Source: a virus. Taken from it: a stretch of DNA of 32,408 nt. The stretch covers positions 1 through 32,408 of IMG/VR virus record IMGVR_UViG_3300009164_000214; one strand, 5' to 3'. Shown one piece after another: positions 82 through 32,096 of the stretch; the stretch's first letter is position 1; each line of letters starts with the position of its first letter. The notes beneath the pieces were generated by a model, which did not search any database, was not told the origin of the DNA, and saw only the letters and a list, made by a program, of their open reading frames with translations. A program made the translations under genes and the position numbers.

Positions 82-119
82 ATAGAAGAAAAATACAACG
101 AAACATACGGAGGTAACAA

Positions 120-2319: not shown

Positions 2320-4244
2320 TAAAAGTATACGACATAGAAACATTCTGCAATTGTTTTACCTACATAGATTACGATCCTGACACTAAAGAAAGTAAGGAGT
2401 TTGTAGTGACAAGTTTCAGAAACGAACTAAAGGATTTTGTTTCCTATTTGAAAACTTTAAAAAAGAAAAAGGCCGGGATGGTTGGCTTCAACAATGTACA
2501 CTTTGACTGGCCTATAGTACGTGCTATTATGGAAGGAGAATTACGTACAGCCGAGCAGATTTATTCTTTGACTCAGAATATTATTTCGAATGAAAAGAAA
2601 ACTTATACCAAGCAAGAGATTCCTCAGTTAGATTTGTACTTGCTGAATCACTACGATAACAAAGCACGTAGCACATCTTTAAAAGCTTTGGAAGTTTCTT
2701 TGGGGTGGGATAACGTATTGGATATGCCTTTAGACCATACCACGGAGATTACTCCTAACAATATTGATATTCTATTATCGTACAATAGAAACGATGTTAT
2801 GTTTACTGCTGAGTTCTATAAGGCGTGTGCTGAGAAGATTGAGTTACGTAAGAAAATCAGTAAGAAGTATAACCTCAAGGTTATAAATAAGAGCGATGTT
2901 GTAATAGGAGAATCAATTTTTATTAAATATTTATCTGAAGATATGGATATACCACCGAATGAACTAACTAAAATTAGGGGAAAACGTGCAGACGTGCCCC
3001 TAAAACAGATTATCTTTCCTTATGTGAAGTTTGATGAGCCTCGCTTCCAAAAGTTGCTTAGATTGATGCAAGAAACTGTTTCCTCCAGTAACTTTTTAAA
3101 AGACTTTGTTGAGAATTTAGACACGGGTTTGTCAACCAATGAACTATTGGAAAAGTTTAAGGATAACAATATCCGTGTGCAAAGAATTGCCCAACAGAAA
3201 AAGTCATTCTCATTTAGTGTTCAGCACGATGATTTGAGGATTGATTATGGTGTGGGTGGTATCCACGGATGTATCAAGCCTGGGGTATATAAGTCAAGTT
3301 TATCACACGGAATACTTGACATTGATGTTAAATCATATTACCCTAACTTATTTATTCAAAATAACTTACATCCACGTCAGATGGATCAACATACCTTTGT
3401 TAAAGTATACTCAGACATATTTCAAGAGAGGGTTAAAGCACAGAAAGAAGGCGACAAATTAACCTCCGATGCACTCAAGTTGGCACTCAACGGTTTGTTT
3501 GGTAAGACGGGCTCAGATGTCAGTTGTTTCTACGATCCGTTTGTATTTTATTCGGTAACTGTAAATGGTCAACTGCTTTTGTCTATGTTGGTAGAGCGGC
3601 TTACTTCTAAAGGTGCGTCCCTACTGCAAGTTAACACAGATGGTGTTACAATTTTATATGATTATTTGTTACGAGATGAAATTATAAATATATGTAAAGA
3701 ATGGGAAGCCATCACCAAATTACAATTGGAGTATGCAGACTATTCTCAGATGATTATCCGGGATGTAAATAATTATATTGCTGTAGGTACTGATGGTAAG
3801 ATTAAAGAGAAAGGTTCTTTCGAAACTAAGAAGGATTGGCATAAGGATAATTCTTATATGGTTGTACCTTTGGCTGTACGTGAATACTTTGTAAATGGTA
3901 CTCCAATAGAGGAGACCTTAGCCAAGCATGAAAACATATTAGATTTCTGTGGTAGGTACAAGGCATCCAAAGGATGGCACGTAGAGTTTGCTTACTTGGA
4001 TGGCAATACTGAGAAACGAATTGAGTTTGGTAAGATATATCGATTCCTTCCAGTAATTAAGGGTGGTGTATCTTTGAAATTAAATAAGGATGGCAGACAA
4101 CACCATCTATGTGAAGGGTATCAAACCTATCCGTATAATCAATTGGAGAAATTTGATAAGAGTAATTTGAATATGAAATTTTTTGTAGCAGAATGTCAGA
4201 AACTAATCGAGACGATATATCCATCGCAGGAGGTACTCTTCTAA
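2316..4244 (+). CDS. family B DNA polymerase with 3'-5' exonuclease
   Basis: A 642-residue replicative DNA polymerase. Exonuclease motifs are visible: Exo I with D6-I-E8, Exo II GFNNVHFD (57-64) and Exo III YNRNDVMF near 157. Polymerase motif A is DVKSYYP (337-343), motif B is KLALNGLFGK near 388-397, and motif C is VNTDG with D442. Motif C reads NTD rather than the usual DTD, so the first Asp is Asn while the second, metal-binding Asp is kept. Only about 50 residues separate motifs A and B, leaving no room for the TPR1 insertion of protein-primed (phi29-type) enzymes, so it probably extends primers made by the upstream primase-helicase. It is short for family B but complete by motifs. It is coupled to its neighbour by ATGA. 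Confidence 0.92.
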   Translation: MIKVYDIETFCNCFTYIDYDPDTKESKEFVVTSFRNELKDFVSYLKTLKKKKAGMVGFNNVHFDWPIVRAIMEGELRTAEQIYSLTQNIISNEKKTYTKQEIPQLDLYLLNHYDNKARSTSLKALEVSLGWDNVLDMPLDHTTEITPNNIDILLSYNRNDVMFTAEFYKACAEKIELRKKISKKYNLKVINKSDVVIGESIFIKYLSEDMDIPPNELTKIRGKRADVPLKQIIFPYVKFDEPRFQKLLRLMQETVSSSNFLKDFVENLDTGLSTNELLEKFKDNNIRVQRIAQQKKSFSFSVQHDDLRIDYGVGGIHGCIKPGVYKSSLSHGILDIDVKSYYPNLFIQNNLHPRQMDQHTFVKVYSDIFQERVKAQKEGDKLTSDALKLALNGLFGKTGSDVSCFYDPFVFYSVTVNGQLLLSMLVERLTSKGASLLQVNTDGVTILYDYLLRDEIINICKEWEAITKLQLEYADYSQMIIRDVNNYIAVGTDGKIKEKGSFETKKDWHKDNSYMVVPLAVREYFVNGTPIEETLAKHENILDFCGRYKASKGWHVEFAYLDGNTEKRIEFGKIYRFLPVIKGGVSLKLNKDGRQHHLCEGYQTYPYNQLEKFDKSNLNMKFFVAECQKLIETIYPSQEVLF

Positions 4245-11392: not shown

Positions 11393-11668
11393 TTATTTTT
11401 TGGTAGACTTACCGTTCTGCCCGTTACGAGCACGATTCTTTTTTGCGGATTCCAAAACTAAACCACCGCTCTTTGTGTGACTTAAGTCTTTACCAGCAGC
11501 GTGTCTTTTTCCGTAAACACCACGTTTACGTGCCTCACGATTTAATTCAATACGTTTAGCAACCTCCGATGGTTTTTTATTATAGGCTTTTTGATAAGCC
11601 AAATCTCTACCCGTGGCTTTATTAGAACCAGGTGCTTTATTTTTTCCTACGATTGTGTTTCTTGCCAT
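11393..11668 (-). CDS. small basic phage protein
   Basis: A 91-residue protein dominated by Lys, Arg and Ala, with elements such as YNKKPSEVAKRIELNREARKRG and the tail SAKKNRARNGQ. This layout resembles a widespread group of small basic phage proteins that pair an arginine-rich helix with a GKD-x-x-H segment and a final NR-rich stretch. I recall the resemblance from general knowledge and could not check it. It may bind nucleic acid or belong to the virion. ATG 11668 is chosen; a TTG five codons upstream is in frame. It overlaps the preceding 36-residue gene and is last in its module. Confidence 0.75.
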   Translation of the reverse strand: MARNTIVGKNKAPGSNKATGRDLAYQKAYNKKPSEVAKRIELNREARKRGVYGKRHAAGKDLSHTKSGGLVLESAKKNRARNGQNGKSTKK

Positions 11669-11747
11669 GGGTAAATTCGTCAATTAAAATAAATATTCCT
11701 AATACAAAAACAAGCATTAAAGTCGAAACAATATATGCTGTGTTCAT
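11637..11747 (-). CDS. 36-residue single-span membrane peptide
   Basis: A frame from ATG 11747 to TAA 11637 encodes a peptide with a hydrophobic core (IVSTLMLVFVLGIFILI) and a basic C-terminus (HGKKHNRRKK), the classic form of an inner-membrane peptide with a cytoplasmic tail. Its start overlaps the upstream gene's stop (ATGA at 11747-11744), and its 3' end overlaps the next gene by 32 bases. It is below usual length cut-offs, but the coupling and composition suggest it is real. It could be a holin-like or membrane-modifying peptide; this is speculation. Confidence 0.6.
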   Translation of the reverse strand: MNTAYIVSTLMLVFVLGIFILIDEFTHGKKHNRRKK

Positions 11748-11890
11748 TTCTTTTTAGCGGTCTTTAGAGATTGTTTAAAAGCTTTTGCTGTCGGAGCACC
11801 CTTAGTACCCGGCTTTCTCATAGTCTCTCCGCTACCTGCTGCAATACGCTTCTTCTTAGCGTTTACATTTGCATAAAGTCCTTGTTTCAT
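11744..11890 (-). CDS. 48-residue basic phage protein
   Basis: A complete frame starting with MKQGLYANVNAKKKRIAAGS and ending in SLKTAKKK. The GLYAN-x-x-AK-RI-AGSGE-MRKPG pattern is one I recall as common among small hypothetical phage proteins, with unknown function. ATGA overlaps join it to the genes on both sides. It is strongly basic and without hydrophobic spans, consistent with a nucleic-acid-binding or virion-associated peptide. Confidence 0.7.
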   Translation of the reverse strand: MKQGLYANVNAKKKRIAAGSGETMRKPGTKGAPTAKAFKQSLKTAKKK

Positions 11891-12027
11891 CCCTGACCTT
11901 TGTATTTTTTTTGATAATTCCTACTACTCTTAGTAGAACTAGTCTTAGTCTTGGCGTGAACGCCTGGTCTACTAACTTTTGATTTAGCAGACCAAGATTT
12001 CACAGACGATTTGTCTTTATTTGCCAT
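11887..12027 (-). CDS. 46-residue Lys/Ser-rich peptide
   Basis: A frame from ATG 12027 to TGA 11887. Composition is almost entirely Lys, Ser, Thr and Gly (SVKSWSAKSKVSRPG, then NYQKKYKGQG). The start overlaps the upstream stop (TAATG) and the stop overlaps the next start (ATGA), so it fits the tight packing of the module. Probably disordered and nucleic-acid-binding; no family recognised. Confidence 0.65.
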   Translation of the reverse strand: MANKDKSSVKSWSAKSKVSRPGVHAKTKTSSTKSSRNYQKKYKGQG

Positions 12028-12239
12028 TATTTCTTTTTAGTGGCAGACTTCCACATTTGCTTTGCTGCTACAGCTTTACCAATAGCAGTTGCTTTTTTAG
12101 GAGACATACCTTTCTTTTCGTAACTCTTCGCTACAGCATCAGCCATAGGACCAAAACCCTTACCTTTTTTACCAATGTCTTTACCTGCTCTTGCAGCCTT
12201 TGCAATGGTGCTTCTTTGTTTTGCAGTTCCGTATGCCAT
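12027..12239 (-). CDS. 70-residue basic phage protein (GKDIGKKGKG type)
   Basis: A 70-residue basic protein with the block RAGKDIGKKGKGFGPMADAV near residue 17, then a helical AVAKSYEKKGMSPKKATAIG and an AAKQMWKSATKKK tail. This block recurs in small uncharacterised phage proteins, as far as I recall. The charge suggests DNA binding, perhaps in the head, but the role is unknown. TAATG overlaps link it to both neighbours. Confidence 0.75.
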   Translation of the reverse strand: MAYGTAKQRSTIAKAARAGKDIGKKGKGFGPMADAVAKSYEKKGMSPKKATAIGKAVAAKQMWKSATKKK

Positions 12240-12451
12240 TAGTTACCGTACATCATAGGCATTTTCATTGCCTTTTTAGCGGGAGATTTTTTAGCAGCAG
12301 TTTTCTTAGCAAACATAGCATCTTCTTTTTTTGCAACTTTTTTACTTTCGGTTTTTTCGTGCTTTACCATAGCTGCTTTAGAAGCGTACTTCTCCATGCC
12401 TCCGTGCTGAGAAATCTTCTTAGCAGGGGCTTTTTTCATTGGTTTTTTCAT
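12239..12451 (-). CDS. 70-residue Lys/Ala-rich histone-H1-like protein
   Basis: A 70-residue protein made largely of Lys, Ala, Met and Pro, with PAKK and AKK repeats (KKPMKKAPAKK, KKSPAKKAMKMP) reminiscent of the C-terminal tails of histone H1 and bacterial H1-like proteins. It is probably disordered and able to bind DNA non-specifically, which would fit compaction or charge neutralisation in the capsid. It overlaps the next gene by a TAATG and lies two bases after the upstream stop. No family assignment is possible from composition alone. Confidence 0.7.
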   Translation of the reverse strand: MKKPMKKAPAKKISQHGGMEKYASKAAMVKHEKTESKKVAKKEDAMFAKKTAAKKSPAKKAMKMPMMYGN

Positions 12452-12452
12452 A

Positions 12453-13211
12453 TTAATTGTAGTTTTTCTTAGTTGTTTTAAATTGAGATCCAGCTTTTTT
12501 AGCAGGCATTTTACTCTTTGTTTCCACGTATGGTCCTCCTCTTACTGTACCTGTATCTCCATAGTTATTTGAAGATTTGATTGTTGGTATTTTCTGAGCC
12601 GGCTTCGATACTGGAGCACTAACTGATTTAGTCATTGGCTTTATAGCAACTGTGTCCTTAACCATCGGTTTAGAAACGGCTGGTTTTGTTACGACCGTAT
12701 CTTTGACTATTGGTTTACTTGCAGGTTTTTGATACTTTACAGGTTGTACTGGTTTTTTGTAAATGTCAATCCATCCTCCTCCTGTACCACGATTTGAAAT
12801 ACCTATTCCTCCTATCGGTTTAATTTTTTGACCTTTAGGGTTCATATTAAGATCATATCTTCCTGACTTATTGTTTGGACGGTAATTTACAAAATCATAA
12901 TCTTTTTTTGAAAATTCTTTTGGTGAAACGCCTTTTTTTATATACAGCGGTGTATCGTCATTATTGAGTTTTATTTTTTTAAGTGTGTTTTTACTTTTGT
13001 TGTATAGATTTAAACTATCGCTATATGATTTTATTCTTTTATCGTTAGGATTTGAAGTATAAATTGGCTCTGCTGTTTTAGAAATAGCTGTTTTTTTCCA
13101 AGTAAAAGATTCATCCATTCTGGCAATCGGATTAACAGAAGTACCTTTAGGTTTAGGACCATTGCTCATTGCAGCTCTTTCGTACATATGATCCTTTAGT
13201 GACTTTGCCAT
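12453..13211 (-). CDS. Lys/Pro-rich disordered protein with VKDTV repeats
   Basis: A 252-residue low-complexity protein. The first half is basic and polar; the second half contains repeated elements such as KPIVKDTVVTKPAVSKP and a near copy KPMVKDTVAIKP. Hydrophobic core residues are few, so it is likely extended or disordered. It heads the module of basic proteins and has a promoter immediately upstream. The frame can be read from a TTG at 13217, but ATG 13211 (MAKSLKDHM) is the better start and lies three bases from the -7 box. Function unknown; a structural or packaged protein is possible. Confidence 0.7.
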   Translation of the reverse strand: MAKSLKDHMYERAAMSNGPKPKGTSVNPIARMDESFTWKKTAISKTAEPIYTSNPNDKRIKSYSDSLNLYNKSKNTLKKIKLNNDDTPLYIKKGVSPKEFSKKDYDFVNYRPNNKSGRYDLNMNPKGQKIKPIGGIGISNRGTGGGWIDIYKKPVQPVKYQKPASKPIVKDTVVTKPAVSKPMVKDTVAIKPMTKSVSAPVSKPAQKIPTIKSSNNYGDTGTVRGGPYVETKSKMPAKKAGSQFKTTKKNYN

Positions 13212-13222
13212 ATACAAATATA
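13209..13222 (-). promoter_or_regulatory. -7 element at the head of the basic-protein module
   Basis: TATATTTG on the minus strand (13222-13215), then TAT and the start codon ATG (13211-13209). A -33 match is not evident. The element begins two bases past the stop codon of the preceding small gene. Confidence 0.55.
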
Positions 13223-13223
13223 A

Positions 13224-13328
13224 TTATTTTTTGGGTTTATTCTGTGATACCTTTACCTTACCACTTGGTTTGGTAGGTTTTGAGTTGTTGTGTTCTAGCT
13301 TCTTAGCTACAAAATTACAGTTATACAT
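13224..13328 (-). CDS. 34-residue basic peptide
   Basis: A frame from ATG 13328 to TAA 13224, overlapping the upstream gene's stop as TAATG (13330-13326). The sequence starts MYNCNFVAKK and continues with Lys, Pro, Ser and Asn (SKPTKPSGKVKVSQNK). It fills what would otherwise be a 116-base gap. Small size lowers confidence, but the coupling and composition match its neighbours. Confidence 0.55.
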   Translation of the reverse strand: MYNCNFVAKKLEHNNSKPTKPSGKVKVSQNKPKK

Positions 13329-13624
13329 TAGCACTTCCATCTTTTACGGGCTTGTCTCAGTCTTGAATTAGGATCTGAGGCCGCACCCGGAAACATTTTC
13401 ATTTGACCAGCACTACGAGCACAAAATGATTTGCGTCTCTTAGCGTCTGCACTACCTGCCTTTACCTTACCCGTAACGGCTGTTTTTAATTTACTACCTG
13501 GATTAGCCTTTCTATATGCTGCAACACCTTTAGCCGTCATACCTGCCCCACTTTTAGTAGGGAGGTAATTAGCAGATTTGCCTTTAGTTGTTTTAGCTAT
13601 TGGGTTATCCTTTCTAGTTGCCAT
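13328..13624 (-). CDS. small basic phage protein (DUF6321-like)
   Basis: A 98-residue protein containing GAGMTAKGVAAYRKANPGSK near residue 26, then VTGKVKAGSADAKRRKSFCARSAGQM, and a final RLRQARKRWKC. This arrangement (GAG-T-KG-AAY, TGKVK-GS--A-RRKSFCAR, C-terminal RKWxC) is one I know from a conserved family of small phage proteins, probably DUF6321. Conserved Cys and Arg clusters suggest nucleic-acid contact; the role is not known. It lies directly after a fibre gene and overlaps the next small gene by TAATG. Confidence 0.75.
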   Translation of the reverse strand: MATRKDNPIAKTTKGKSANYLPTKSGAGMTAKGVAAYRKANPGSKLKTAVTGKVKAGSADAKRRKSFCARSAGQMKMFPGAASDPNSRLRQARKRWKC

Positions 13625-18578: not shown

Positions 18579-19730
18579 TTATATTAAATTTACCCATGCA
18601 CCATTTTCATAACCACGAAATTTATTTGTGGTTGTGTTATAATAAATCATTCCGTTTGTTCCTGATGGATCAGCTGTTAAATTACCTAGAGTTAACATAT
18701 TTTGTATTCTAACCCTACCATTTACATCCATTTTGAATGTACCATTTGTAGTAGTTCCAATTAATAGGTTACCATCATTCGTAATTCTCATTCTTTCTCC
18801 ATAGGAATCAGCGTTCCTTGTACGAAAAGTCATATAGGAACTTCGGTTTGCAGCAGTAGCCCAAGTTGCACTTAATCCAAATACTCTTATATCGGCTGCG
18901 TCTACGGGACCAATATTATCATCCCCTTGCCATCTTATACCACCAATTAAATCATTAGTGATTGCAAGACTATTTTTCATTTTGTACAATTCTATAAAAG
19001 CACCAAAAGTAGTTGAACTTGCAGTATTACAAGAAATTGTATGCTTTAGATCTCTAGCAACTGCAAAAAATGCCCCTTGTTCAATATTCTCATAAGTAGT
19101 TACTTGTTTATTGACTATCATTGAATTACCAAATTCTACGGGTAATGTCCAACTAGAAGTATTAGTTCCTATGTTAAATTGCAACATTGTCTGTCCACTT
19201 CCCGACCCAAGAAGATTACTATCCCAATCACTTCTTGGATAACCCGTAATACTAAAGTATCCACTTTGGTCAAAAAACATTATACTACCCACAGTCCCCG
19301 AAAGGAATCCACTAAATTTAACATAACTTAATCCCATCAAAGGAGTTCCTGCGGCATACCCCGATGTAACTTTAAATTGAGCACCAGTTGTTGGTACTGC
19401 ATAATACTCACGAACTTCTATTGTATTGGTGGTGACGTTTCCTGCTGTAGTTACTTGATTTAAAGTAGGGACAATAGGAGTTTGATTTTGCCATTGAGAA
19501 GTAGTTGAATTATATGCTAAGACTTGAGCATTGGCAGGAGCACTTATGGTGACATCTGTTAATCCATTAAGATCTGAGGCCCCACCTAACGATAACGTAT
19601 CTAACTCAACTACAATCCTACGAAGTCTAGACTCTTGGTCTTTATATTCTTGGTTACGAGTTGTTGCGTATAACTTATTCAGATATATCGCTTGTTTAAG
19701 TAACTCTTGTTTAGTAACCTCTAAAGACAT
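18579..19730 (-). CDS. tail fibre / structural protein
   Basis: A 383-residue protein. A helical N-terminus (LEVTKQELLKQAIYLNKL, then YKDQESRLRRIVVELDTLSL) probably forms a coiled coil. A fibre linker follows (SDLNGLTDVTISAPANAQVL, SQWQ), then a beta-rich Gly/Ser/Thr region. The C-terminus has the pattern MRITNDGNLLIGTTTNGTFK followed by ADPSGTNGMIYYNTTTNKF and GAWVNL, common at the ends of fibre proteins of Bacteroidota phages and related adhesins. It lies directly after the endolysin-like gene (TAATG coupling) and is last in its module. Confidence 0.75.
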   Translation of the reverse strand: MSLEVTKQELLKQAIYLNKLYATTRNQEYKDQESRLRRIVVELDTLSLGGASDLNGLTDVTISAPANAQVLAYNSTTSQWQNQTPIVPTLNQVTTAGNVTTNTIEVREYYAVPTTGAQFKVTSGYAAGTPLMGLSYVKFSGFLSGTVGSIMFFDQSGYFSITGYPRSDWDSNLLGSGSGQTMLQFNIGTNTSSWTLPVEFGNSMIVNKQVTTYENIEQGAFFAVARDLKHTISCNTASSTTFGAFIELYKMKNSLAITNDLIGGIRWQGDDNIGPVDAADIRVFGLSATWATAANRSSYMTFRTRNADSYGERMRITNDGNLLIGTTTNGTFKMDVNGRVRIQNMLTLGNLTADPSGTNGMIYYNTTTNKFRGYENGAWVNLI

Positions 19731-20353
19731 TAATTAATCAAGTTAAAATTGATTATTTCTCCTTCTGAGAAGTGTTTAATTATTTCTTTCCAATGTACAT
19801 CTGGAACAACTTGGCATCCAGCACTCCACTTATCGATTAGGCCTCCGAGACCTCCTCTATGTAAGTTGATTCCAAATAAGCCAAATTGCTTTGGTGCTCT
19901 TCTGTCTAAGGTAGCATCCTTATTTCCATCTCTGAAAATATCAATAGGTCTTACTTGTTGGAAGTAAGGCATCTTTAACCATAATGTACTCCAGTCTTGT
20001 TTGTATATGTATTTATGAGACCCAATCACTTGCTGTTCTACAGCGATGGCCGTCCCGGTAATTCCACCATAACTGATTGGATTCTGAACGTAGTACTTAC
20101 CTGCTGTTGTAGAACAAGGAGCAACCTTTACAATTTCTCCACCTACAATCAAAACTACAAAGTCATCATAACTATTTGTAAGTTTTTCATCTGTACGTAT
20201 GTATACCAAACCTTTGCTAACATGAACATATTTCTTGTTCAAGAATATTGTAGAGATATACTCTTTTAAAATGGCTAGTGTATTTTTTCCGATAACACCA
20301 TCCACTTCTAAATTATAGCCTTTAGACTTTAAAAATATTTGTAATCCTTTCAT
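19730..20353 (-). CDS. endolysin candidate: peptidoglycan-binding plus YkuD-like domain
   Basis: A 207-residue protein. Residues 1-35 fit a PG_binding_1 module (LQIFLKSKGYNLEVDGVIGKNT). The rest resembles the L,D-transpeptidase (YkuD) fold, with the catalytic signature INLHRGG near residue 165 and SAGCQVV near 181, where His and Cys would be the active residues. A phage enzyme of this kind would attack or remodel peptidoglycan at lysis or during entry. No signal peptide is visible, so it would need a holin or virion delivery. It sits between two fibre genes, coupled to both, and away from the spanin at 7880-8278. The catalytic direction (hydrolase or transferase) is unknown. Confidence 0.75.
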   Translation of the reverse strand: MKGLQIFLKSKGYNLEVDGVIGKNTLAILKEYISTIFLNKKYVHVSKGLVYIRTDEKLTNSYDDFVVLIVGGEIVKVAPCSTTAGKYYVQNPISYGGITGTAIAVEQQVIGSHKYIYKQDWSTLWLKMPYFQQVRPIDIFRDGNKDATLDRRAPKQFGLFGINLHRGGLGGLIDKWSAGCQVVPDVHWKEIIKHFSEGEIINFNLIN

Positions 20354-21347: not shown

Positions 21348-21734
21348 TTATAATATTATTTTATATCCGTTTTGTAATAATAACCAAGAACCATTCTGTT
21401 TAAGAAGGTATCCTCCAAGTTTAGATTTTTTCATTAGCAATCTACCTAATTCTGTGTCCATAAATGTTTCAATTTCTGCTGGTGTCACAGAACAATTACC
21501 GCATTTTTTTGCAAATCTTTTTGCTACAGATAACATTTTATCCATATTATCATTGTAACAACTGATACTCTCTAGGCAAAACAATATAAACAAACCTTTC
21601 TTCTGCTGTGTTTCCATAGCACAACAAGGAGTATCATATTTCTTAGCAGTATTGATTTTATTCTCCGTAGCAACGATTGCCTTACGGACTGCTAAGTAAG
21701 TACCTAAATAATCATATAGATTGATGTAAACCAT
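21348..21734 (-). CDS. cysteine-containing hypothetical structural-region protein
   Basis: A 128-residue protein starting with MVYINLYDYLGTYLAVRKA, a helical part that includes YDTPCCAMETQQ, then FILFCLESISCYND, KKCGNCSVTPAEI and a basic C-terminus with LKQNGSWLLLQNGYKIIL. The cysteine pairs might bind metal or form disulfides. ATG 21734 is chosen because it overlaps the stop of the preceding gene (TAATG); a frame extension to 21764 runs inside that gene. Function unknown; it lies among tail-type genes. Confidence 0.65.
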   Translation of the reverse strand: MVYINLYDYLGTYLAVRKAIVATENKINTAKKYDTPCCAMETQQKKGLFILFCLESISCYNDNMDKMLSVAKRFAKKCGNCSVTPAEIETFMDTELGRLLMKKSKLGGYLLKQNGSWLLLQNGYKIIL

Positions 21735-22309
21735 TAGCAACCACAACTTGAACCAATAGACCAACTATTACAATCAGAATCTGATAGCATCAAAGTTATT
21801 TCATCAAATAAATCTTGTGCAAGTGTATAGTCTGCACATTCAAATGCTTGAACCATTCGATCATACATAAATTTAACCTCTGCATAATTATTGGTTTCCA
21901 TATCGCTCAATGCCAATTTACCAATAGAACAAACTAAATCGTTCACTCTTAAAGAGTATTCAGTCAAGGCTGGAATTCCACTTCCAACAAAGTTTATTAC
22001 GTATTTCCAAATACCGTCTTGTAAAGTAAAGGTCGGTACTACCGAAGTAACATCATTAAGCAAGTCATATGCCCTATCTACACTTGTAAAAAAAGTAGTA
22101 GTAATTAAATTAGAAGTTCCTATACTTACAGCAGAAGAAGGAAGATATATGTCTAAGTTTATTGCTGTTATTGGGCCTGAAGTATGTGCGACATTAGGAG
22201 GATTACCCCATCCACCAGGATTAGAGACAGCATTGTAATCACCAGTATTGTCGGTGATTACAATTTTATCATCGTAATTTATAATTCCAATTTTGATTGC
22301 TAGTGCCAT
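21734..22309 (-). CDS. structural-region hypothetical protein
   Basis: A 191-residue protein with a beta-rich N-terminal half (IKIGIINYDDKIVITDNTG, then AINLDIYLPSSAVSIG) and a helical C-terminal half (KFMYDRMVQAFECADYTLAQ) ending in a Cys/Ser-rich tail (DCNSWSIGSSCGC). The terminal cysteines are unusual. It is the first gene of a module with a promoter immediately upstream and follows the giant polyvalent gene. A tail or neck role is possible but not shown. Confidence 0.7.
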   Translation of the reverse strand: MALAIKIGIINYDDKIVITDNTGDYNAVSNPGGWGNPPNVAHTSGPITAINLDIYLPSSAVSIGTSNLITTTFFTSVDRAYDLLNDVTSVVPTFTLQDGIWKYVINFVGSGIPALTEYSLRVNDLVCSIGKLALSDMETNNYAEVKFMYDRMVQAFECADYTLAQDLFDEITLMLSDSDCNSWSIGSSCGC

Positions 22310-22313
22310 AACT

Positions 22314-22344
22314 CAAAGATACAAAAATTATCTAAGGAATCAAA
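22314..22344 (-). promoter_or_regulatory. promoter of the fibre/endolysin module
   Basis: TTTG (22344-22341), 19 bases, TATCTTTG (22321-22314) on the minus strand, then AGTT and ATG 22309. The best -33/-7 match in the window; the -33 lies inside the end of the giant gene. Confidence 0.7.
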
Positions 22345-25300
22345 CCGTTTTCATCTGCTATACCAACCCTCTTTAATTTCACCATCATATCCGGAGTAAT
22401 CAAACCTCTTTCCTTCATAATTATCAAGTATTTCTTTTGTCTTTGGGTATAATACTCTTTCATATAACTATCGTTAGCGGCTTTCTGTGTTTTTTGGAAT
22501 TGCTCAAATAAAGTAATAATTTTATTTTTTGCTCCTTCTACATCTCCATCTTCGATATTAGTTTTTATCTTAGCTTTGATGTCTATAATTTCATCACCAT
22601 AAGACCTAAGAGATGTACGCATAAACTCTCCTCTCAATCTCAATTCTTGTCTGTATAAATCGTTAGGTAAACTATATCCAATAAACTTAGGTACATTTTC
22701 TGAATCATAACCATCGATAGTAGTTTTTTCTAACATCTGAAAATCATTTTTTAAAGGATTAGCAATAATTTGATCTATAGGTCTTGTTTTTTTGTTCCAT
22801 TGCCATTCATAATTTTTACCAGACATTTGTTCGTACATTAGAGCAAAATCTATTAAGCCACTATATAATTTTGAAGACTCAAGATAGATTTGTTTTTCTT
22901 TGTTTCTTAATAAAACTGGTGTAGTATGGTCATGTATCGCAAAAGGATCAAATATTGCTTGTAAATAAGCAACAGCAGAATAATCTCCATCTGGATCGGC
23001 AATTGTAACTCTTGTGCTTAAATCTTCTCCAAATGGTCCTATTGCTTCTTTGAAAAATTCATTTCTTGTGCTTTCATTAAAAGAAATATTTCTATTTAAT
23101 TTTTGTACTGTTTTTGTAATTGTTCTTCCAAATACAGCTGGCCAAGTATCGCCTTCTCTTTCCGAGAAAATCTCATTTGAGTTTTGTACCATTTGGGCAT
23201 TTCCTTTATACATGAAAGAATAAAAAGATGGGAAGAAAACAGCCATTGATGTAGACAAGGTTCCTGATGCAAAATTTTCCCATGCTCCTTTACTTGCTTC
23301 TGGGTCTTTAAAATCAGAAAGTAATTGACCAATACGTGCTAAACCTTGGAACATCGGTAATGTCTCAATACCATTACTAAGTGTATTTTGAAACATAAAA
23401 CCTATTCCATTTTTTGCATCATCTACTAATTCAGTCATAGAATCTTGATATGCTTTGCGATTAGCGTTATGAGTACTACCATATAAATTCATAGCATATC
23501 CAACAAAACCAGCATTATTTGTGTTTAAGATAACATCACCAGGCAATGCAAAACCACCTCTTCTTGCTATAAAATAATCTGTTCCTCTTGTTTTATAGTC
23601 ACCACCAAAGAAATTTAAACCAGTTTTGGCAGCATTTTTTGCTTGTTCTGCTAAATATTCATAGTGCAAAGTAGCGTTATAAATACCTCCACGCAAATTA
23701 ATATTTTTTAGATTTTTTTCTTTTTCTGGTTCTTGACCACTAGCCATAACAGCTCCACATTTAACTGCTGACATAGCAAAACCATAGATTGCAAAACTCG
23801 TTGCCATTTGAGCAGCATCGTGTGTTGTTTGTCTTTTTGCAGCAAACAATTCAATTTTATCTTTTTCGTATTGTAATCTTTTTCTTTCGCTGTTTAATTT
23901 TGGAATACCTTTTCCCCATTTATCACTAGAGTGAAACTGAAAATATTTATACTGATAATACCCTTCAGAAAAAATGTATTTGGCTGAAGCAATATGAGGC
24001 ACAGTTTTAGCAATTGCACTACCTAAAAAGTTCACGGGAACTTTTGTAAATGGCATAAGAGTCCAAAGACCAGCATCTAAGATTTGTAATAAATTTTTAC
24101 TTATTCCTAAAGCTGTAAATTGTCTTTTGGCTTCAGAAAAAATACCTGTTCCAGAAGTATTTGCACGATTTGCAATATATGCATTTTTAATTCCTTTTCT
24201 AAGAGAACCACGAATTGTTGATATACCTCCAGATATTAAATTATCTGCTAATAATGTACGTTTTAATCCTTCTTTTTCAAATGTTTCGTACAATTCTGGC
24301 ATATTATAAAGAATAGTACTTAAAGAACGAATTGCATTTTTATCCAAATTTCCTTTTGCATCTTTAATCATATTATCAAATACACCACCTTGGTAATTTG
24401 TACCTTCGATGTTTTGAAAATAATCAATCATTGCACGTTGAGCTGCCATTTGACCAAATGCTATATCACCTCCGTATGCCATAACACGACCTACAAATTC
24501 AGAAGTAGCAGGACCAGCAGATGCTAATAACATTGATGCATTTCCACCTACTACAGCAGAAACAGGACCTAATCCAAAACTCCAAGCCAAACTACGAGCT
24601 AAAGTATAGTCTTTACCATCTCTTAATTCAATTGTGCCATCTTTTAATTTGGTGAGTGTTAAGTCTAAAGCATCTGCCTGTTCTTCCATAGTCATTTCAG
24701 ATAATGATTTACCAGTAGTTTTTCTTATCATAACATTCATAAAGTTAAATGCCCACGCAGGATCTTTAAAGAAGTTTACTTGAGCAAGATTATCATAATA
24801 ACGATTTAAACCTTTTGATGTATTTAAAGCACCATATTTAAAGTTATTCTGTTGAGTATAATGAATTCTATCTGATGTCAATTGTCTAGCCATTTTCCAA
24901 TTTGAAAAACTTAAAGTATTACCTTTAATTCCTCTTCCTACTGAATCACGTAATTTTTGTATTCCTCTTGCTGCATAGTTAGTAGTCCAAAGATTGTTTT
25001 CTACGTTTGCAACTAAACTTAATACAGTAGTTGAAATTCCTAATAATGCTCTACTACCACCAGATGTTATTCTTTCATTCCAGAATATTGGTTTTCTAGC
25101 ATCTAAGAATTGTGCTAAACGAATAGTGGCATCTCCTATTGCTTTTTCTGAGGCCCAATAAGTATCAAATGCATTATCACTCCAATCGGTATGTAATTCT
25201 TCTAAAGCCTTCTTATTTCTCTGTTGTGATGTTTTATAATCGTTTGCAAGAGAATTTAAAGTTTCTTTTTGTTTTTCTGTAAGAACTACTCCATTATTTT

Positions 25301-28300
25301 CTATAGCTCTTTCTAAAACGCTTAGAATATTCTTTTCGCTAAATGAACGAGCCATTTGTAAAATTCTACCTGCTTGGCTAAATAATTGAGATGAAACTTG
25401 GAATGCATATACTATAGATTCCGGATTGTATAAATTATCTCCAACTTTACCGGAACGAACTTGATCCGCCCAATCTAAAGTTTTATCTACTAAATTTCTA
25501 TCTTGTGAAAACTTTTTAACAGCGTTGGTTAATTCAATAGCAATTTGGTCAAAGCCATTTGTTGCTAGATAATCAAGGAACAAATCCATAGTGACAGCAC
25601 TATCAACTAAACCTATTCCAGTTTGACGTAATACATTAGAAACATCAGCAGCCGTTTGTTCAACTTTTAAATTTTTAACATCTTGTTCCAAATCTTCCAT
25701 AAAGTCAGTTGGAAATTCTTTGTTTGCATCTAAAGCATTTTTAACAGTCTCACGATATTCTGCACCGAAGATATCAATTAACTCTGCGTTGCTCATATAA
25801 TCCATATCCGTAACTGCTTTGAAAATTTCCAATGGAGAAAAATTAACCATTACTCCATTGTGTTCCATACCATCTGCAATTAAATCTTCATAAATTAAAC
25901 CAAGTTGACCTAAATTATTGGTGATTTGTTGTTTAATATATTTTTGACGATCAAAGAATACATCGTGAACCTTAGTCATCGTCTCCATAGCAATTTTGGC
26001 TTGTGCTTGTTTAAACGAATTTTCATCAAAATTGGCAAGACCTATTTGTTCTTTGATGTGCTTAGGAGTATAACCTTTATTAATAAGGGCCATATAACTC
26101 GAAATCTTATTGTTATTACTTTGCATCATCGCCCTGTGATATTCAGAACCGATGTTACTATAGTTCAATTGACCTTTATTTTTATAGCCGTCAATAATCG
26201 GTTTTAAATGTTTAGCAAAAAATGAATCAGGATCATTTATATCTTTGATTGTGATATAAGGATCAAATATTTTTGTTTCTCCATCGGCATCTTCGGCAGC
26301 ATTTTTTTCATGTATATCATCTACAATAAGACCTTTTTGAGTAATGGTAACATGATGAGCACCATTTTTACTAAATACTTTTGCTTCAAAACCACTTTGT
26401 TTAGTAATTTCTTTTGCAAGTTCTTGCATATCTGATAAAGAAAAACTACTATATTCTCTAAAAGAAATTGATAAAGCTGGTTGTTTTGTAACAAAAGAAA
26501 GTTGATTTTTACCATTTAAATCTGACCTTGAAAAACCAACAATTTCATAAGCAGTATTGCTAAACATTAAATTATGCGCTGCAAATCTGTAGAAATCATA
26601 GTCAAAACCTCTTTTATAAAGGTTTGCTATTGTGTTTTTAAATACATATTTACAACCTTCACCTAGCCATACTTTCGATTCCATACCTTGTTTTATTTCA
26701 TATTCAGGAGCAGGGAATAGATTTTCTACGTTGTTTATCCATATGCCATTTTTCTTGGCCCAATCTTCTAAGTGGTTTTCTTGTTCTCTGATTGTTTGTT
26801 CAGAAGCTCTGGTGCCCGTGTTAAACTCTTTCGAAAATCTTCCAAGCTCATTAAAGGCCTCTTTTCCCACATTTCCAATGCTGTACTTGTTTGCTTGGGG
26901 GCTAAGTTGTTGCTCTGCGAGAGTTCCGAGTTGTCGTTCGTTTCCGTTTTCATCTATTAATAATGTATTTTTAAGTTGTCCTTTGTTAATTATAGTTGTT
27001 GTACTGACAGGTTTAGTAATAGTAACACCTATCGCACCAAATGTATTGTTTTTTTCTACTACAGCAGATGGTCCTAATCTATCTTGAATGTATTCAAGTA
27101 ATTCATTACCGTCAAATCCTTTTTGATATGCTCCAGTACTTTCAATCTTGTAACTTTTGCTTTCTAATCCCGGCTTTCCTCCTTTAGTTGGTTGAATATC
27201 TCCAGCCCATTTACGAGTACTTATTACTGCTTTACCGCCTTCGTTCAATTTATCGTAAATATCTTGAACGATAGCATCACGTACATCTTTCGGTACGACA
27301 TTTAATACGTTCAATGATACAACAGCATCATATTTTTTATTTATTTGATCTGAGGCCGTAAAAGTAGGTTTTTCTTTACCTTGCCATCTTTCTGTGTTTG
27401 GTTCATAAGAATCTATTGTTCTACCTAATTTACTACCTAACACATCTACTCCAAGACCTAACCCTGCTCCGTAATCTAAAACATCACCTTTTACATCAGC
27501 AATTATATTAGCAACTTTATTGTAAGATGCTACGGTATTAGCACGTTGAGTTGTACCACTACTTTTTTCAGCTGCTATTTGACCTTTATTAATTGTGTTA
27601 TCAATCCTAGGTTTTTTATTCAATAAATCATTTAAAGTAACAGAAGAACCAAAATTATCTCTAAGTTTATTAGTTTTTAATTCTTTAGTTACTTTGTCTT
27701 CAGAATCAAATAAACTATCTTTATTAAAAATAAGAAAGTTGTCTACTCCTATTTTATTTTCTTGCAAGATATCTTCATCTTTAAAAGCAATACCTGTATA
27801 TCCTTGAGATTTAAGTTTTTCTATTAAAGCCTCAACATCTTTTTCATTAATAGAAGTTTCGAATCGTGGGTCTAAAAGTTCATGTATACCTAATTCATCT
27901 GTAGTCCAACCTTCTTCTCTTGGCTTAAGTCCTAAATCGTTAATAGTTTTTCTAACTAAATCTTCAGAAGCCATTTCAATCGGATTTATAAAAAACTTGC
28001 TAACTTTTCCATAATTCATATTAGCAAATTCTTTCGCTTGTCTTCTATCGCTAGCTACATATAAATTATTTCCTTCGTTATCAAAATTGCCTCCGTGGTA
28101 TACTGGTATAGTTTCATTTAGATTAAAATCATTTTGTGCTTTATTAGTAATTTTACCTTTTGCTTTAGTTTCTTTAGAGCCTTTGTTTGTTTTTTCTGTT
28201 TGACGATTTGTTTTCAATTTACCTGTAACTTGTCCACTAGCTAAAGTGTCAGATAAATCATTCATATACTCAATGAAATCCTTACGATTATTTATACTAT

Positions 28301-31300
28301 TGAAAATTTGAACTCTACCTTTAGAAACATACGCCACAAAATCAGAAATGGCTTTAGCAATTTTATCTATGGTAGACAAATCTAATTTCTTTCCGTCTCT
28401 AGACATAAGAGCTGCCAATTCTACTAAAAACTCTTCACCTTTTTGATTATCTCTATATTCCTCAACTAAACTATTTAAGTTTGCTAAATTCTTTTCGCCT
28501 ACTTGAGATGCAAGTACATTTTGTAAACTTTCTTTCATTCTATTAAATAATTCTGGATTTTGTCCTAAACTATTTAATAGAAGTACGTGTGAAACTTCGT
28601 GACCAATAGTTGTAGAATTTGCAGTATCCATATTAATTTGAATTTGTGCTTGAAACTTGCCCGTTTTCTCATTAAATGATATAGTTATGTTTCCATTTCT
28701 ATTTTTCTTTGTATCCAAACTAGTCATCGTTTCATTAAAATCATTAGTATTTAATAAAACAATGTTAACACCCGGAGTTGCTTCGTCTAGTACTCCTTGT
28801 AATCTTTTAGCATCATCTAATATTACATCTGCATTTTGTTGTCCAGCAGCCCTTGCATTATCAGCAATTAAATTTAATTTTTCTTCATCTTTAACTATCG
28901 CACCTGTTTTACTTGCCTTTGTACTTAATCCTGTTACAATCTGAGGCCCAGAAACAACCTTAGTATCGTTCTCTGTCATTTGTTTTTTGAATTCCTCAAG
29001 ACCTTTAGTTATTTCTTGGTTTTGAGTTTCAACTTTAATTTTACCATCTAGTAAATCATTTGCAAATTTTTCATCATTCAATGAAGCAATTAAATCAGTA
29101 TCATCTACAATGATGGATTGTTTATTATCAAAAGTAATTTTGGTATAATTTAAATTCTTTCCGTTTGGAATATCTGACATTTTTTTATCCAAACTTTTAA
29201 TTTGAGAATCGATAGCATTTTTTAAATTCTCATCGGTTTGAGCATCAGATGCTTTTTGTAATTTAGCCTTTTTTGAAGCCAATGCCAAGTAATACTTTTG
29301 ATGATCTGGATTTTCTATTATTTCTTTAGCAGCAGGAAAAGTTTTAATTACTTCATCAAATGCTTTTCTCATATCCGCTAATTCATTAGCATCAATTTGA
29401 CCTGTGCGATATAGCATTTCTGGAATAAAACCAACTCCTTTTTCTCCTATAATTTGCATAGCATCACTAACCATTTGACTTAGTCCGCTATCTTTTAATT
29501 TATTAAGTACACGATTCTTTGCTATCTCTACTTGCTTTTCTCTATATGTTTCCATCATTGCACTACCACCACCTAAAACCATTACAGTTGGGGTAATGTT
29601 AATCATAGTAGACATACCATTTTTACTAGTCCAATCCCAAAAACCATCTGGGTTTTCAGTAGTATATTTATACTCTAAGTAACTTTGTGGTAATTCTTGA
29701 GCTCCTTCTGTTAATAATTCAAAAGTCGTACCTGCACCAAACTTTTTAGCTATCCCTCCTATTCCTACTCCTTTTCCTAATTTACCAAGGAAACCTTTTG
29801 TAAAAGGTAACATTTCTGCTACATATGTAGGAGCAAGTAATAATTGAACTCTTAAGCTTTCAGCAGCAGCGTTTTCAGCATCTGCAACAGATCCTGTTCT
29901 TTTAAAAGCATTTTTATAATTCTGACCAGTTTGATCCCAAGTATCTTGAGCAAAACCTATTGAACCACCTACATATGCACTACCACCTAAAAGTGTTGCA
30001 GCCATTGCTGGTGCATAATTAACAGTTTGCATAGCAAGATTTTGTACAACATTTTTTAACGCTGCTGTACTTAATAATCCTTCTACTTCTAAAACTTTAT
30101 CAAATGGTGAAATATGAACTTCGCTCTTTTTTTGTACTAATTGTAAATGTTTTAATAAACCAGTTAGTGGATTATTTTCATATCCTACAGCAGCACTAAT
30201 AGATTGTATTGCATTTTCAAAATTATCAGCAGCTCTTCCTTGAATAATATCTACTATTCTCCACCCTAGGTTTGAACTATTGCGTTCTTCATCTATTGCA
30301 AAGTCATCGTATGCATCACGATAAGCATCTCTATATTTACGATACGCTGCTGTTGTTACTCTTGCTCCTTCTTCGTTTGCGTCATGAGCAACACCATATT
30401 TTTTTTGTAGTTTTTCAAAGTCTTTTTCAGATTGACCATCAAGTTGAATTTGATATTGAGTATATTTTTCTTCTGCTGCCTTTTTTAAATCGTTTTTAAG
30501 TTTTTCGTTTTTGTCGTTTTCTTCTTTTACAAAATTTACATACTTTGCATATTCAGCTGCATTTTGTTCTGGCGTTATATTAGGAGTTTGAGAAAATGAC
30601 AAATATGTTTGATAAGAAAGATTAACACTTTGTTTAGATGCCTCAGCAGCTTTTTTCATTGTTTGTTCAAAGTCATTTGCTAAACTTAAACTATATGAAT
30701 TTAAAACTTTATTTTTATCAAACACTAATTGCTTTATGTCTTTTTCAAAATCTAAATTTGCCCTTGATATATCTTCAGCAAAAATATTTTTATCATTTAC
30801 TTTTTTCTCAACTATATTTTCAATTAAATTTTCTTCTGCTCTTTGTGACAATAAACGAATCATACGAGGTTTAATAATAGCTATAACATCTTCTTTGCTC
30901 ATATCTAAGCGTTTCAATGTTTCATCTTTAATAAAACCCATAGGAGCATTTAAATATTTATCTACTTGGTCTTCTATATAAATAGGATTGATTTTTGGAT
31001 TGTTAGCATCATCTAGCATTACTAATCCATAATCTCCAGCTAATTGTCTGTTTGGATTTAATCCTTTAGAACTTGTTTTAGTTATTTTTCCAACATTATT
31101 AATACTTTCTGTTGTAATTGTTGTAAGTGCTGGATTATCATAGAAATTAACTGGCAAATTAAAATTAGAACTTTTTAAAATTTTATTAATCTCTGGAGTG
31201 ATTATTTGGTCAAATTGATTTCCTGCAATATTTAAATCTCCTTCGACATCAAATCTTCTATCAGAAGAAGTAGCAATACTTAAATCTTGGTACGCTGAAT

Positions 31301-32096
31301 AATTTCTTACGTAACTTTCTAATAAATTTTGACTTTGTTCAACTGGCTTAGGTTTGTTTAACTCGGTTAAACTTTCAGTTAATGTAAACTCTTTAAAAGG
31401 TGCTCCTTTTTGAATTGGGGCAAAATTAATTGCTTGAGTACCTTCGCCTTTTGGTTTTATCTCAATGTTGTTATTGTTAATATTAACATTGAATTTTTTA
31501 TTTGCTGTTTTTACTATGGCATCTAAATCTTCTTGAGCATTAGGGTCAGATTTAAATTGTTTATATAATTGTACAAAATTATCTGTTTTATCCTTTAGTA
31601 AATTTAAATTTACATTAGGCTGAGCTAATAAATTTTGTATCTCTCCATATAAGGTTTGATACTGATTCTTCATAGAACCAGTATATGGCATTTGTCCTAC
31701 AGACTTTATAATACCATTTGTCGGGGTAGGTTTTGGTATTGATGGACCAGTAGAATTTTCAAATCCTACACTCATCAAATTATTGTTTTCTTGTTGACTT
31801 ACATTTCCAGCGTTTTCTGGTAAATTCGCTTGGGTTTGGTCCACCACATTTTCAGTCTGTCCACCCGAAAGAGATTGAAAAGAAGAACTTTCTTCTGCGA
31901 GGTTTTGAATAATCGGTTGGTCTTTTTTTTTTAAATATTCTGAGGCCGATTTCACTCCGAATAAATCTTCAAGTTGTTTATCTGCCTCTGGGGCACTAGT
32001 AATAAACTCTTGAAAATCTTCTTTGTTGTTAAAGTACTGACCGAAATCAGGTTTTTGGCTTAACTCGCCATACAGTTCTTCAAAATTTTCTGCCAT
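22332..32096 (-). CDS. giant polyvalent virion-type protein (protease, ART, methyltransferase, kinase-like domains)
   Basis: A 3254-residue protein filling 30% of the window. By eye: a polar, partly disordered N-terminus; helical stretches; hydrophobic segments near 685-715 and 750-850; a metalloprotease-like region with HEVSH at 1166-1170 and a downstream EFLVELAAL that may give the third metal ligand; an ADP-ribosyltransferase-like region from about 1330 (PVYHGG) to 1465; a SAM-methyltransferase fold at about 1510-1665 (LDYGAGLG, later YDAVVSLNVLNVVP); a kinase-like polyvalent domain at about 1775-1960 (EYEIKQGMESKVWLG, later DDIHEKNAAED and KIFDPYI); then a long helical C-terminal half with more hydrophobic segments near 2500-2790. 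Such 'polyvalent' proteins are packaged and injected to modify the host. It starts three bases from the preceding stop. Confidence 0.85.
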   Translation of the reverse strand: MAENFEELYGELSQKPDFGQYFNNKEDFQEFITSAPEADKQLEDLFGVKSASEYLKKKDQPIIQNLAEESSSFQSLSGGQTENVVDQTQANLPENAGNVSQQENNNLMSVGFENSTGPSIPKPTPTNGIIKSVGQMPYTGSMKNQYQTLYGEIQNLLAQPNVNLNLLKDKTDNFVQLYKQFKSDPNAQEDLDAIVKTANKKFNVNINNNNIEIKPKGEGTQAINFAPIQKGAPFKEFTLTESLTELNKPKPVEQSQNLLESYVRNYSAYQDLSIATSSDRRFDVEGDLNIAGNQFDQIITPEINKILKSSNFNLPVNFYDNPALTTITTESINNVGKITKTSSKGLNPNRQLAGDYGLVMLDDANNPKINPIYIEDQVDKYLNAPMGFIKDETLKRLDMSKEDVIAIIKPRMIRLLSQRAEENLIENIVEKKVNDKNIFAEDISRANLDFEKDIKQLVFDKNKVLNSYSLSLANDFEQTMKKAAEASKQSVNLSYQTYLSFSQTPNITPEQNAAEYAKYVNFVKEENDKNEKLKNDLKKAAEEKYTQYQIQLDGQSEKDFEKLQKKYGVAHDANEEGARVTTAAYRKYRDAYRDAYDDFAIDEERNSSNLGWRIVDIIQGRAADNFENAIQSISAAVGYENNPLTGLLKHLQLVQKKSEVHISPFDKVLEVEGLLSTAALKNVVQNLAMQTVNYAPAMAATLLGGSAYVGGSIGFAQDTWDQTGQNYKNAFKRTGSVADAENAAAESLRVQLLLAPTYVAEMLPFTKGFLGKLGKGVGIGGIAKKFGAGTTFELLTEGAQELPQSYLEYKYTTENPDGFWDWTSKNGMSTMINITPTVMVLGGGSAMMETYREKQVEIAKNRVLNKLKDSGLSQMVSDAMQIIGEKGVGFIPEMLYRTGQIDANELADMRKAFDEVIKTFPAAKEIIENPDHQKYYLALASKKAKLQKASDAQTDENLKNAIDSQIKSLDKKMSDIPNGKNLNYTKITFDNKQSIIVDDTDLIASLNDEKFANDLLDGKIKVETQNQEITKGLEEFKKQMTENDTKVVSGPQIVTGLSTKASKTGAIVKDEEKLNLIADNARAAGQQNADVILDDAKRLQGVLDEATPGVNIVLLNTNDFNETMTSLDTKKNRNGNITISFNEKTGKFQAQIQINMDTANSTTIGHEVSHVLLLNSLGQNPELFNRMKESLQNVLASQVGEKNLANLNSLVEEYRDNQKGEEFLVELAALMSRDGKKLDLSTIDKIAKAISDFVAYVSKGRVQIFNSINNRKDFIEYMNDLSDTLASGQVTGKLKTNRQTEKTNKGSKETKAKGKITNKAQNDFNLNETIPVYHGGNFDNEGNNLYVASDRRQAKEFANMNYGKVSKFFINPIEMASEDLVRKTINDLGLKPREEGWTTDELGIHELLDPRFETSINEKDVEALIEKLKSQGYTGIAFKDEDILQENKIGVDNFLIFNKDSLFDSEDKVTKELKTNKLRDNFGSSVTLNDLLNKKPRIDNTINKGQIAAEKSSGTTQRANTVASYNKVANIIADVKGDVLDYGAGLGLGVDVLGSKLGRTIDSYEPNTERWQGKEKPTFTASDQINKKYDAVVSLNVLNVVPKDVRDAIVQDIYDKLNEGGKAVISTRKWAGDIQPTKGGKPGLESKSYKIESTGAYQKGFDGNELLEYIQDRLGPSAVVEKNNTFGAIGVTITKPVSTTTIINKGQLKNTLLIDENGNERQLGTLAEQQLSPQANKYSIGNVGKEAFNELGRFSKEFNTGTRASEQTIREQENHLEDWAKKNGIWINNVENLFPAPEYEIKQGMESKVWLGEGCKYVFKNTIANLYKRGFDYDFYRFAAHNLMFSNTAYEIVGFSRSDLNGKNQLSFVTKQPALSISFREYSSFSLSDMQELAKEITKQSGFEAKVFSKNGAHHVTITQKGLIVDDIHEKNAAEDADGETKIFDPYITIKDINDPDSFFAKHLKPIIDGYKNKGQLNYSNIGSEYHRAMMQSNNNKISSYMALINKGYTPKHIKEQIGLANFDENSFKQAQAKIAMETMTKVHDVFFDRQKYIKQQITNNLGQLGLIYEDLIADGMEHNGVMVNFSPLEIFKAVTDMDYMSNAELIDIFGAEYRETVKNALDANKEFPTDFMEDLEQDVKNLKVEQTAADVSNVLRQTGIGLVDSAVTMDLFLDYLATNGFDQIAIELTNAVKKFSQDRNLVDKTLDWADQVRSGKVGDNLYNPESIVYAFQVSSQLFSQAGRILQMARSFSEKNILSVLERAIENNGVVLTEKQKETLNSLANDYKTSQQRNKKALEELHTDWSDNAFDTYWASEKAIGDATIRLAQFLDARKPIFWNERITSGGSRALLGISTTVLSLVANVENNLWTTNYAARGIQKLRDSVGRGIKGNTLSFSNWKMARQLTSDRIHYTQQNNFKYGALNTSKGLNRYYDNLAQVNFFKDPAWAFNFMNVMIRKTTGKSLSEMTMEEQADALDLTLTKLKDGTIELRDGKDYTLARSLAWSFGLGPVSAVVGGNASMLLASAGPATSEFVGRVMAYGGDIAFGQMAAQRAMIDYFQNIEGTNYQGGVFDNMIKDAKGNLDKNAIRSLSTILYNMPELYETFEKEGLKRTLLADNLISGGISTIRGSLRKGIKNAYIANRANTSGTGIFSEAKRQFTALGISKNLLQILDAGLWTLMPFTKVPVNFLGSAIAKTVPHIASAKYIFSEGYYQYKYFQFHSSDKWGKGIPKLNSERKRLQYEKDKIELFAAKRQTTHDAAQMATSFAIYGFAMSAVKCGAVMASGQEPEKEKNLKNINLRGGIYNATLHYEYLAEQAKNAAKTGLNFFGGDYKTRGTDYFIARRGGFALPGDVILNTNNAGFVGYAMNLYGSTHNANRKAYQDSMTELVDDAKNGIGFMFQNTLSNGIETLPMFQGLARIGQLLSDFKDPEASKGAWENFASGTLSTSMAVFFPSFYSFMYKGNAQMVQNSNEIFSEREGDTWPAVFGRTITKTVQKLNRNISFNESTRNEFFKEAIGPFGEDLSTRVTIADPDGDYSAVAYLQAIFDPFAIHDHTTPVLLRNKEKQIYLESSKLYSGLIDFALMYEQMSGKNYEWQWNKKTRPIDQIIANPLKNDFQMLEKTTIDGYDSENVPKFIGYSLPNDLYRQELRLRGEFMRTSLRSYGDEIIDIKAKIKTNIEDGDVEGAKNKIITLFEQFQKTQKAANDSYMKEYYTQRQKKYLIIMKERGLITPDMMVKLKRVGIADENGLIP

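Follow-up and report, generated by a model that had tools for sequence, protein, structure and literature searches.

A giant phage protein with a variable enzyme bay and protease-linked junction motifs: a proposed self-cleaving cargo polyprotein of a crass-like podophage

Introduction

The 32,408-base IMG/VR record IMGVR_UViG_3300009164_000214, a linear fragment analysed here in full and referred to as the window, carries a gene for a single protein of 3,254 residues (P0001, the giant) with several apparent enzyme domains. Does such a protein act as one chain, or are its enzymes set free, and if so by which protease and at which sites? Large polyvalent proteins have been described from phages and conjugative elements (Iyer et al., 2017; PMC5512222), and self-processing by their metallopeptidases (MPTases) was proposed in the same work. 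We examined the domains of the giant, its relatives in other phages, and short sequence patterns at the domain junctions.

Results

The giant combines an MPTase with three further enzyme-like domains

The gene is, as an earlier note on this DNA had read it, a single minus-strand frame, starting with ATG and free of internal stops across its 3,254 codons (Table 1). The label of polyvalent protein also holds: the chain unites at least two disparate biochemical activities [Kinase-PolyVal and a SAM methyltransferase (MTase) by Pfam; an MPTase by its conserved active site], making the giant a new member of this class (Iyer et al., 2017). The hydrophobic, possibly membrane-penetrating segments of the earlier note are not borne out; 19-residue Kyte-Doolittle windows gave no stretch of transmembrane-level hydrophobicity in the giant (best mean 1.38). 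The giant had no PDB match by sequence. RNA polymerase was considered and rejected: Pfam gave no such profile match in the giant, and relatives do not share a DPDGD sequence found near residue 3033, their consensus being ADPGTAG.

Table 1. Features of the giant and its neighbouring genes in the window
Feature	Residues	Position	Strand	Evidence
Syntenic gene directly after the giant, 191 aa, putative		21734..22309	(-)	in 10/10 homologue records tested, 45-61% identity
Giant polyvalent cargo protein P0001, 3254 aa (proposed cargo role)	1-3254	22332..32096	(-)	ATG-started single open frame; full-length homologues L010-L016
C-terminal constant region	1971-3254	22335..26186	(-)	alignment A2, 35-65% identity to 5 relatives
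Junction site 4, NKGQL	1973-1976	26169..26180	(-)	motif scan; L012-L015 homology restarts at residue 1971-1973
Kinase-PolyVal	1771-1951	26244..26786	(-)	PF18762; motifs kept in L010, L016, L014
Junction site 3, NKGQL	1704-1707	26976..26987	(-)	motif scan; AF2 block means drop from 47 to 28
Class I SAM methyltransferase	1511-1698	27003..27566	(-)	PF13489; Foldseek 3h2b; 253 related IMG/VR stretches
Junction site 2, NKGQ	1503-1506	27579..27590	(-)	motif scan; AF2 block means 27-42
ART-like domain (tentative)	1328-1472	27681..28115	(-)	ART-PolyVal below cut-off; homologues L052, L099, C75C1
Junction site 1, NKAQ	1318-1321	28134..28145	(-)	motif scan; AF2 block mean pLDDT about 29-30
Zincin-like metallopeptidase	1090-1290	28227..28829	(-)	alignments A3, A4; AF2 core pLDDT 81-96; common to 118 giants
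HEVSH catalytic motif (HExxH)	1166-1170	28587..28601	(-)	H1166, E1167, H1170 invariant
N-terminal constant region up to the MPTase	1-1085	28842..32096	(-)	BLAST homology 28-53% to L010-L016 (residues 1-1295 or part)
Preceding cargo-region gene, C-terminal end, cut by contig end		32100..32408	(-)	44% identity over 54 aa to the 514-aa gene directly before the giant in G010

The HExxH protease of the earlier note is upheld. The three HExxH residues and the third ligand, E1222, are invariant in a 21-row alignment of the domain, and the predicted secondary structure (AF2, pLDDT 81-96 at residues 1085-1234) follows the order given for polyvalent zincins, an N-terminal helix and beta sheet followed by two C-terminal helices, the first with HExxH and the second with a glutamate (Iyer et al., 2017). 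The BFVD fold matches include an M34 endopeptidase (E = 1.7e-3), with IrrE and SprT-like proteins as weaker matches. No Pfam model scored above cut-off for this domain, and the MPTase/ART model had no significant PDB fold match.

The ADP-ribosyltransferase-like (ART-like) identity of the next domain is weakly supported by its sequence. ART-PolyVal (Tox-ART-HYD2) domains have a triad of H in strand 1, Y in strand 2 and D in strand 5. H1334 and Y1346 fit the first two positions, in keeping with the earlier proposal of such a domain; the third catalytic residue is uncertain, falling at a variable position (N/D/N/E) where the model is weak, and the Pfam match stays below cut-off (E = 0.0027; 18.9 bits against 31.2). 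E1406 and D1409 are invariant, and in one homologue R replaces the triad H.

The methyltransferase and the polyvalent kinase-like domain were both confirmed. PF13489 (Methyltransf_23) matches residues 1534-1628 (E = 1.7e-6), the fold is that of class I SAM methyltransferases (Foldseek, 3h2b, E = 2.9e-7), and the DYGAGLG motif is kept in relatives. The position of the NPP(Y/F) motif of DarB-type DNA adenine methylases reads NVLNVVP, and a helicase match is absent. Judged by the neighbours of its modelled fold, the MTase is predicted to be of the small-molecule/protein type; because of this and the missing adenine-methylase motif, nothing points to a DarB-like protection of DNA. The same MTase occurs in smaller phage proteins adjoining portal or capsid genes (L002:11323-13830, L006:3657-7292, L007:3438-7403), among them gp40 of Roseobacter phage CRP-738 and gp97 of mycobacteriophage Myrna, which is annotated as a tape measure; these gene neighbours suggest a widespread virion-associated MTase. 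The kinase (residues 1771-1951) matches PF18762 (E = 1e-17; 65 bits against a cut-off of 27) and retains ATP- and phosphotransfer-site residues (K1820, D1926/D1927, H1929, N1932, D1945), with DD[IL]H and DP[YF]I motifs common to the relatives listed in Table 1. It is a truncated kinase.

Constant end regions enclose a variable bay

A single-sequence scan of IMG/VR gave no direct relatives of the giant. Scanning IMG/VR with an MTase alignment (A1) returned 253 related stretches; 80 were retained, and seven of these (L010-L016) hold full-length giant relatives. L092, L095 and L099 came from a scan with the C-terminal region; the MPTase, used as a further query, led to 118 giants, reduced by clustering to 73 representatives. 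Searches with the C-terminal half in phages and with the N-terminal half in plasmids gave no matches. The C-terminal region was likewise absent from the bacterial genomes searched, which precluded a host assignment from prophages.

Homology to the full-length relatives runs unbroken through residues 1-1295, or a portion of this stretch (28-53% identity by BLAST), and through residues 1971-3254 (33-59%), the latter region having no Pfam match; the bay between them differs. L010 and L011 lack the ART-like domain, L012 and L013 lack the kinase, and in L014 and L015 the kinase precedes the MTase. A MAFFT alignment of the entire bay misplaced the kinase and ART pieces, and the bay was therefore modelled in two halves. 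Comparison of these sequences indicates a cargo bay of variable content, where enzymes have been gained, lost and reordered, framed by constant N- and C-terminal regions. The earlier note had proposed that the four-enzyme combination may be a distinctive anti-host or anti-defence package. Among the 118 giants with this MPTase, the MPTase, this ART-like domain, the MTase and the kinase do occur together in the window only, because the cargo region is swappable; the combination is one state of a shuffling bay, not a fixed package.

A short motif marks the domain junctions

In the giant, NK[GA]Q occurs four times against 0.17 expected (0 of 20,000 shuffles reached four): before the ART-like domain, before and after the MTase, after the kinase, and nowhere else. 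The remaining window proteins (6,558 aa) contain no NK[GSA]Q. All four sites lie within AF2 linkers of low confidence or on their borders. The linkers are predicted to be flexible and are rich in K, S, N and Q. A broad regular expression for the motif was not significant in the window taken alone (p = 0.098) and is excluded from the evidence, which consists of the precise NK[GA]Q spelling, the places where it lies and its recurrence in the family.

Related giants carry other spellings at equivalent places, and the aligned junction sites read roughly [PFVI][KVI][SAGT][KR][SAQ]Q[LIK]D. An unbiased search of each giant for over-represented short patterns ranked SKSQ, SRSQ, RQQK and FSRR high, the pattern differing from phage to phage, and these flank the MTase on both sides. 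In small proteins that carry the MTase outside a giant, matched motifs on its two sides are mostly missing. The 3015-aa giant at L066:6065-15109 has five FSRR copies, all downstream of its HExxH at 900; two of them bracket the MTase with different codons, as another junction spelling would. In the elemovirus giant (L195:3546-14630), reading by eye places a probable ART-like segment (PTYRGTS), upstream of the MPTase, between KTQEDAVQKQ and KAQEDAVQKQ.

Across the 73 representative giants, the motif occurs less often than expected upstream of the MPTase (0.62x); it is enriched 6.5x within 40 aa after the MPTase and 3.35x from 41 to 900 aa after it, and is near expectation (1.2x) beyond 1000 aa. 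The motif had been framed on a first set of giants, with 49 held out for replication. The held-out giants gave 12 occurrences against 1.3 expected and 65 against 16.7 expected, with a 9-fold enrichment within 40 residues after the MPTase; the motif letters vary, and by the narrow regular expression 15 of the 49 have no downstream motif. When the order of the letter classes was permuted, the median number of matches was 35, as against 139 for the motif itself.

The motif also lies where homology between giants breaks off. Its median distance to a recurrent homology breakpoint is 2 aa, compared with 41 aa for other bay glutamines (p = 6e-34), a median that is somewhat flattering because BLAST ends are drawn to the shared motif and a p-value that, like the others here, is optimistic because related giants were counted as separate observations. 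Even so, the difference is wide: within 20 residues of a breakpoint lie 81% of motif sites and 38% of other bay glutamines.

Spelling agreement is 0.43 between copies within a protein and 0.20 between proteins. The codons of motif copies differ synonymously and include serine AGY/TCN switches, which need two changes, so it is the peptide and not DNA identity that is kept; arms for DNA-level recombination were rejected on account of the same differences. Spelling covaries with MPTase similarity when MTase similarity is allowed for (partial Mantel r = 0.43, p = 0.001), and the reverse test, spelling against MTase similarity, gave r = -0.24 (p = 0.98). This covariation could reflect inheritance together with the entire N-terminal region instead of a fit between protease and substrate.

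By synteny, the giant belongs to a late cluster of crass-like virion genes

The late genes of a related genome (G010) run, with others between, in the order portal, 305-aa gene, major capsid, ring, adaptor, muzzle, 246-aa gene, 514-aa gene, giant. Relatives match the crass muzzle (crAss_MUZ, E = 2e-53) and ring (CrAss_Ring_2, E = 4.1e-11) profiles, and 44 of 50 giant-bearing records have a muzzle homologue, against 0 of 14 control genomes. The giants are thus encoded with virion genes of the crass-like lineage, an assignment made directly in the relatives and by synteny for the window, which ends before the muzzle and ring genes. The giants of the cultured elemovirus and Gundel phages are annotated as structural proteins, annotations that may rest on homology. 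Synteny and annotation together support loading of the giant into the virion. Since the cultured relatives infect Flavobacterium, Tenacibaculum and Cellulophaga, the host is likely a member of the Bacteroidota.

Elsewhere in the window, a DNA polymerase (phrog_1252) and a primase-helicase (phrog_239) lie on the plus strand (429-4244), opposite to the late genes. A run of small, very lysine/alanine-rich proteins (11393-13624; including 96, 70, 70 and 98 aa) contains a 98-aa member that matches phage families of unknown function (phrog_10346); these proteins are possibly DNA-condensing or packaged. A 207-aa protein (19730-20353) has an HRG...SAGC sequence that by eye resembles the active site of an L,D-transpeptidase (YkuD), with no Pfam match, and is possibly a peptidoglycan enzyme.

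Discussion

The domains, the modular bay and the motif, with its placement, its conservation at the protein level and its covariation with the MPTase, are observed; that the chain is cleaved, when this would happen and what its enzymes might target, we infer. We regard it as moderately probable that a crass-like podophage, probably one that infects Bacteroidota, loads this protein into its virions as a cargo polyprotein, and that the protein's own MPTase cuts it at junction motifs to free the enzymes. The constant N- and C-terminal regions would probably serve packaging and ejection, and the exchangeable bay would hold host-modifying enzymes (the ART-like domain, the SAM methyltransferase and the truncated kinase), each flanked by copies of the junction motif (NK[GA]Q in the giant). 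The polyprotein would be ejected as a thread, and the upstream zincin would most likely cut at or next to the motif, in the head or after injection, to release the enzymes. The earlier note's suggestion of effectors split from the chain by the protease finds unexpected support in candidate sites that covary with the protease. A preference for glutamine at P1 would be unusual for a zincin.

The same sites would be expected if a different protease, from the phage prohead or the host, cut the motifs and the embedded MPTase were an effector against host proteins. In T4 and phiKZ, a separate protease processes head and injected proteins at short repeated motifs. MPTases as effectors are also allowed for by Iyer et al. 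(2017). Against this stand the confinement of the motif downstream of the MPTase and a motif dialect that tracks the MPTase of the same chain; moreover, prohead sites would be expected in head proteins, and NK[GSA]Q is absent from the other proteins of the window, the capsid gene lying outside it. We consider a separate protease improbable. A low but appreciable probability remains with a chain that acts intact, the motifs being exchange seams for cassette recombination or hinges for ejection. The coincidence of breakpoints with the motif, the variation of cassettes among relatives and the predicted flexibility of the linkers all fit that explanation, but motif copies differ at synonymous sites, AGY/TCN serines included, so that DNA identity is not kept, and a hinge needs no fixed four-letter peptide with a protease-linked dialect.

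An ordinary polyvalent protein, in which the motif arises by chance or from the composition of K-, S-, N- and Q-rich linkers, would account for the result of the broad regular expression in the window. It is at odds with the excess of the motif over permuted letter-class orders, its replication in held-out giants, its depletion upstream of the MPTase and the count of NK[GA]Q in the giant, and we disfavour it as very improbable.

The self-cleaving polyprotein, our preferred explanation, can be extended to the family. As an evenly balanced conjecture, a large family of crass-like phages would load self-cleaving polyproteins in which MPTase and site spelling co-evolve, any enzyme placed between two sites becoming releasable cargo in a plug-in effector format. 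If so, phages deliver many enzymes as one ejectable thread, a viral-polyprotein strategy, and the protease-site pairs form a natural set of proteases with differing specificities. The segment between two motifs offers a sequence-only route for finding and delimiting phage effector domains of unknown kind.

The giant resembles the known polyvalent proteins in being a large, multi-enzyme chain with a zincin MPTase, an ART-like domain (tentative in the giant), an MTase and a truncated Kinase-PolyVal, and those proteins are likewise predicted to be injected (Iyer et al., 2017). It differs in its MTase: most of those described are adenine DNA methylases that bear the NPP(Y/F) motif and are accompanied by SWI2/SNF2 helicases, whereas that of the giant has neither the motif nor a helicase. 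Self-processing has been proposed since 2017 without named sites, and we found no processing-site motif in the text of Iyer et al. (2017); exact candidate sites can now be named in the window and in cultured relatives. We found no reports of such junction sites in the literature searched, most subscription papers lying outside the search. What is new is the layout: a cargo bay set between constant regions, with a junction code that is tied to the protease.

Bayfield et al. (2023; PMC10172136) describe large cargo proteins, gp45-gp50, that are packed into the virion of crAss001, a muzzle-bearing phage, and ejected; the giant is comparable in being encoded downstream of a muzzle homologue, as in G010. 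In crAss001, gp47, gp49 and gp50 are RNA-polymerase-associated, whereas the giant has no RNA polymerase match; protease and cleavage terms are absent from the main text of that paper (Bayfield et al., 2023).

Among cultured phages, the Flavobacterium elemovirus giant (QMP84890.1) shares the MPTase (elemoC, E = 1.2e-55) and the late-gene position and carries a TRQQK site near residue 2078, and the Tenacibaculum phage Gundel_1 giant has a C-terminal region in common with other giants. Both (3694 and 2482 aa) carry other cargo; tblastn of the window giant against them gave no match, and they are linked to it through intermediates. The giant of Rhodobacteraceae phage LS06-2018-MD07 (L003:6868-16022) is homologous to that of the window in the MTase only, with another MPTase and another motif, yet it has its own HExxH at 905, followed by the MTase and by repeated [ILM]FQ (6 against 0.9 expected), all downstream of that HExxH and several at domain junctions. 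By eye, it also contains an ART-like YHGT motif. Its sequence suggests the same format with another protease clade, and other phage lineages may reach this format with other proteases and spellings, such as [ILM]FQ and FSRR.
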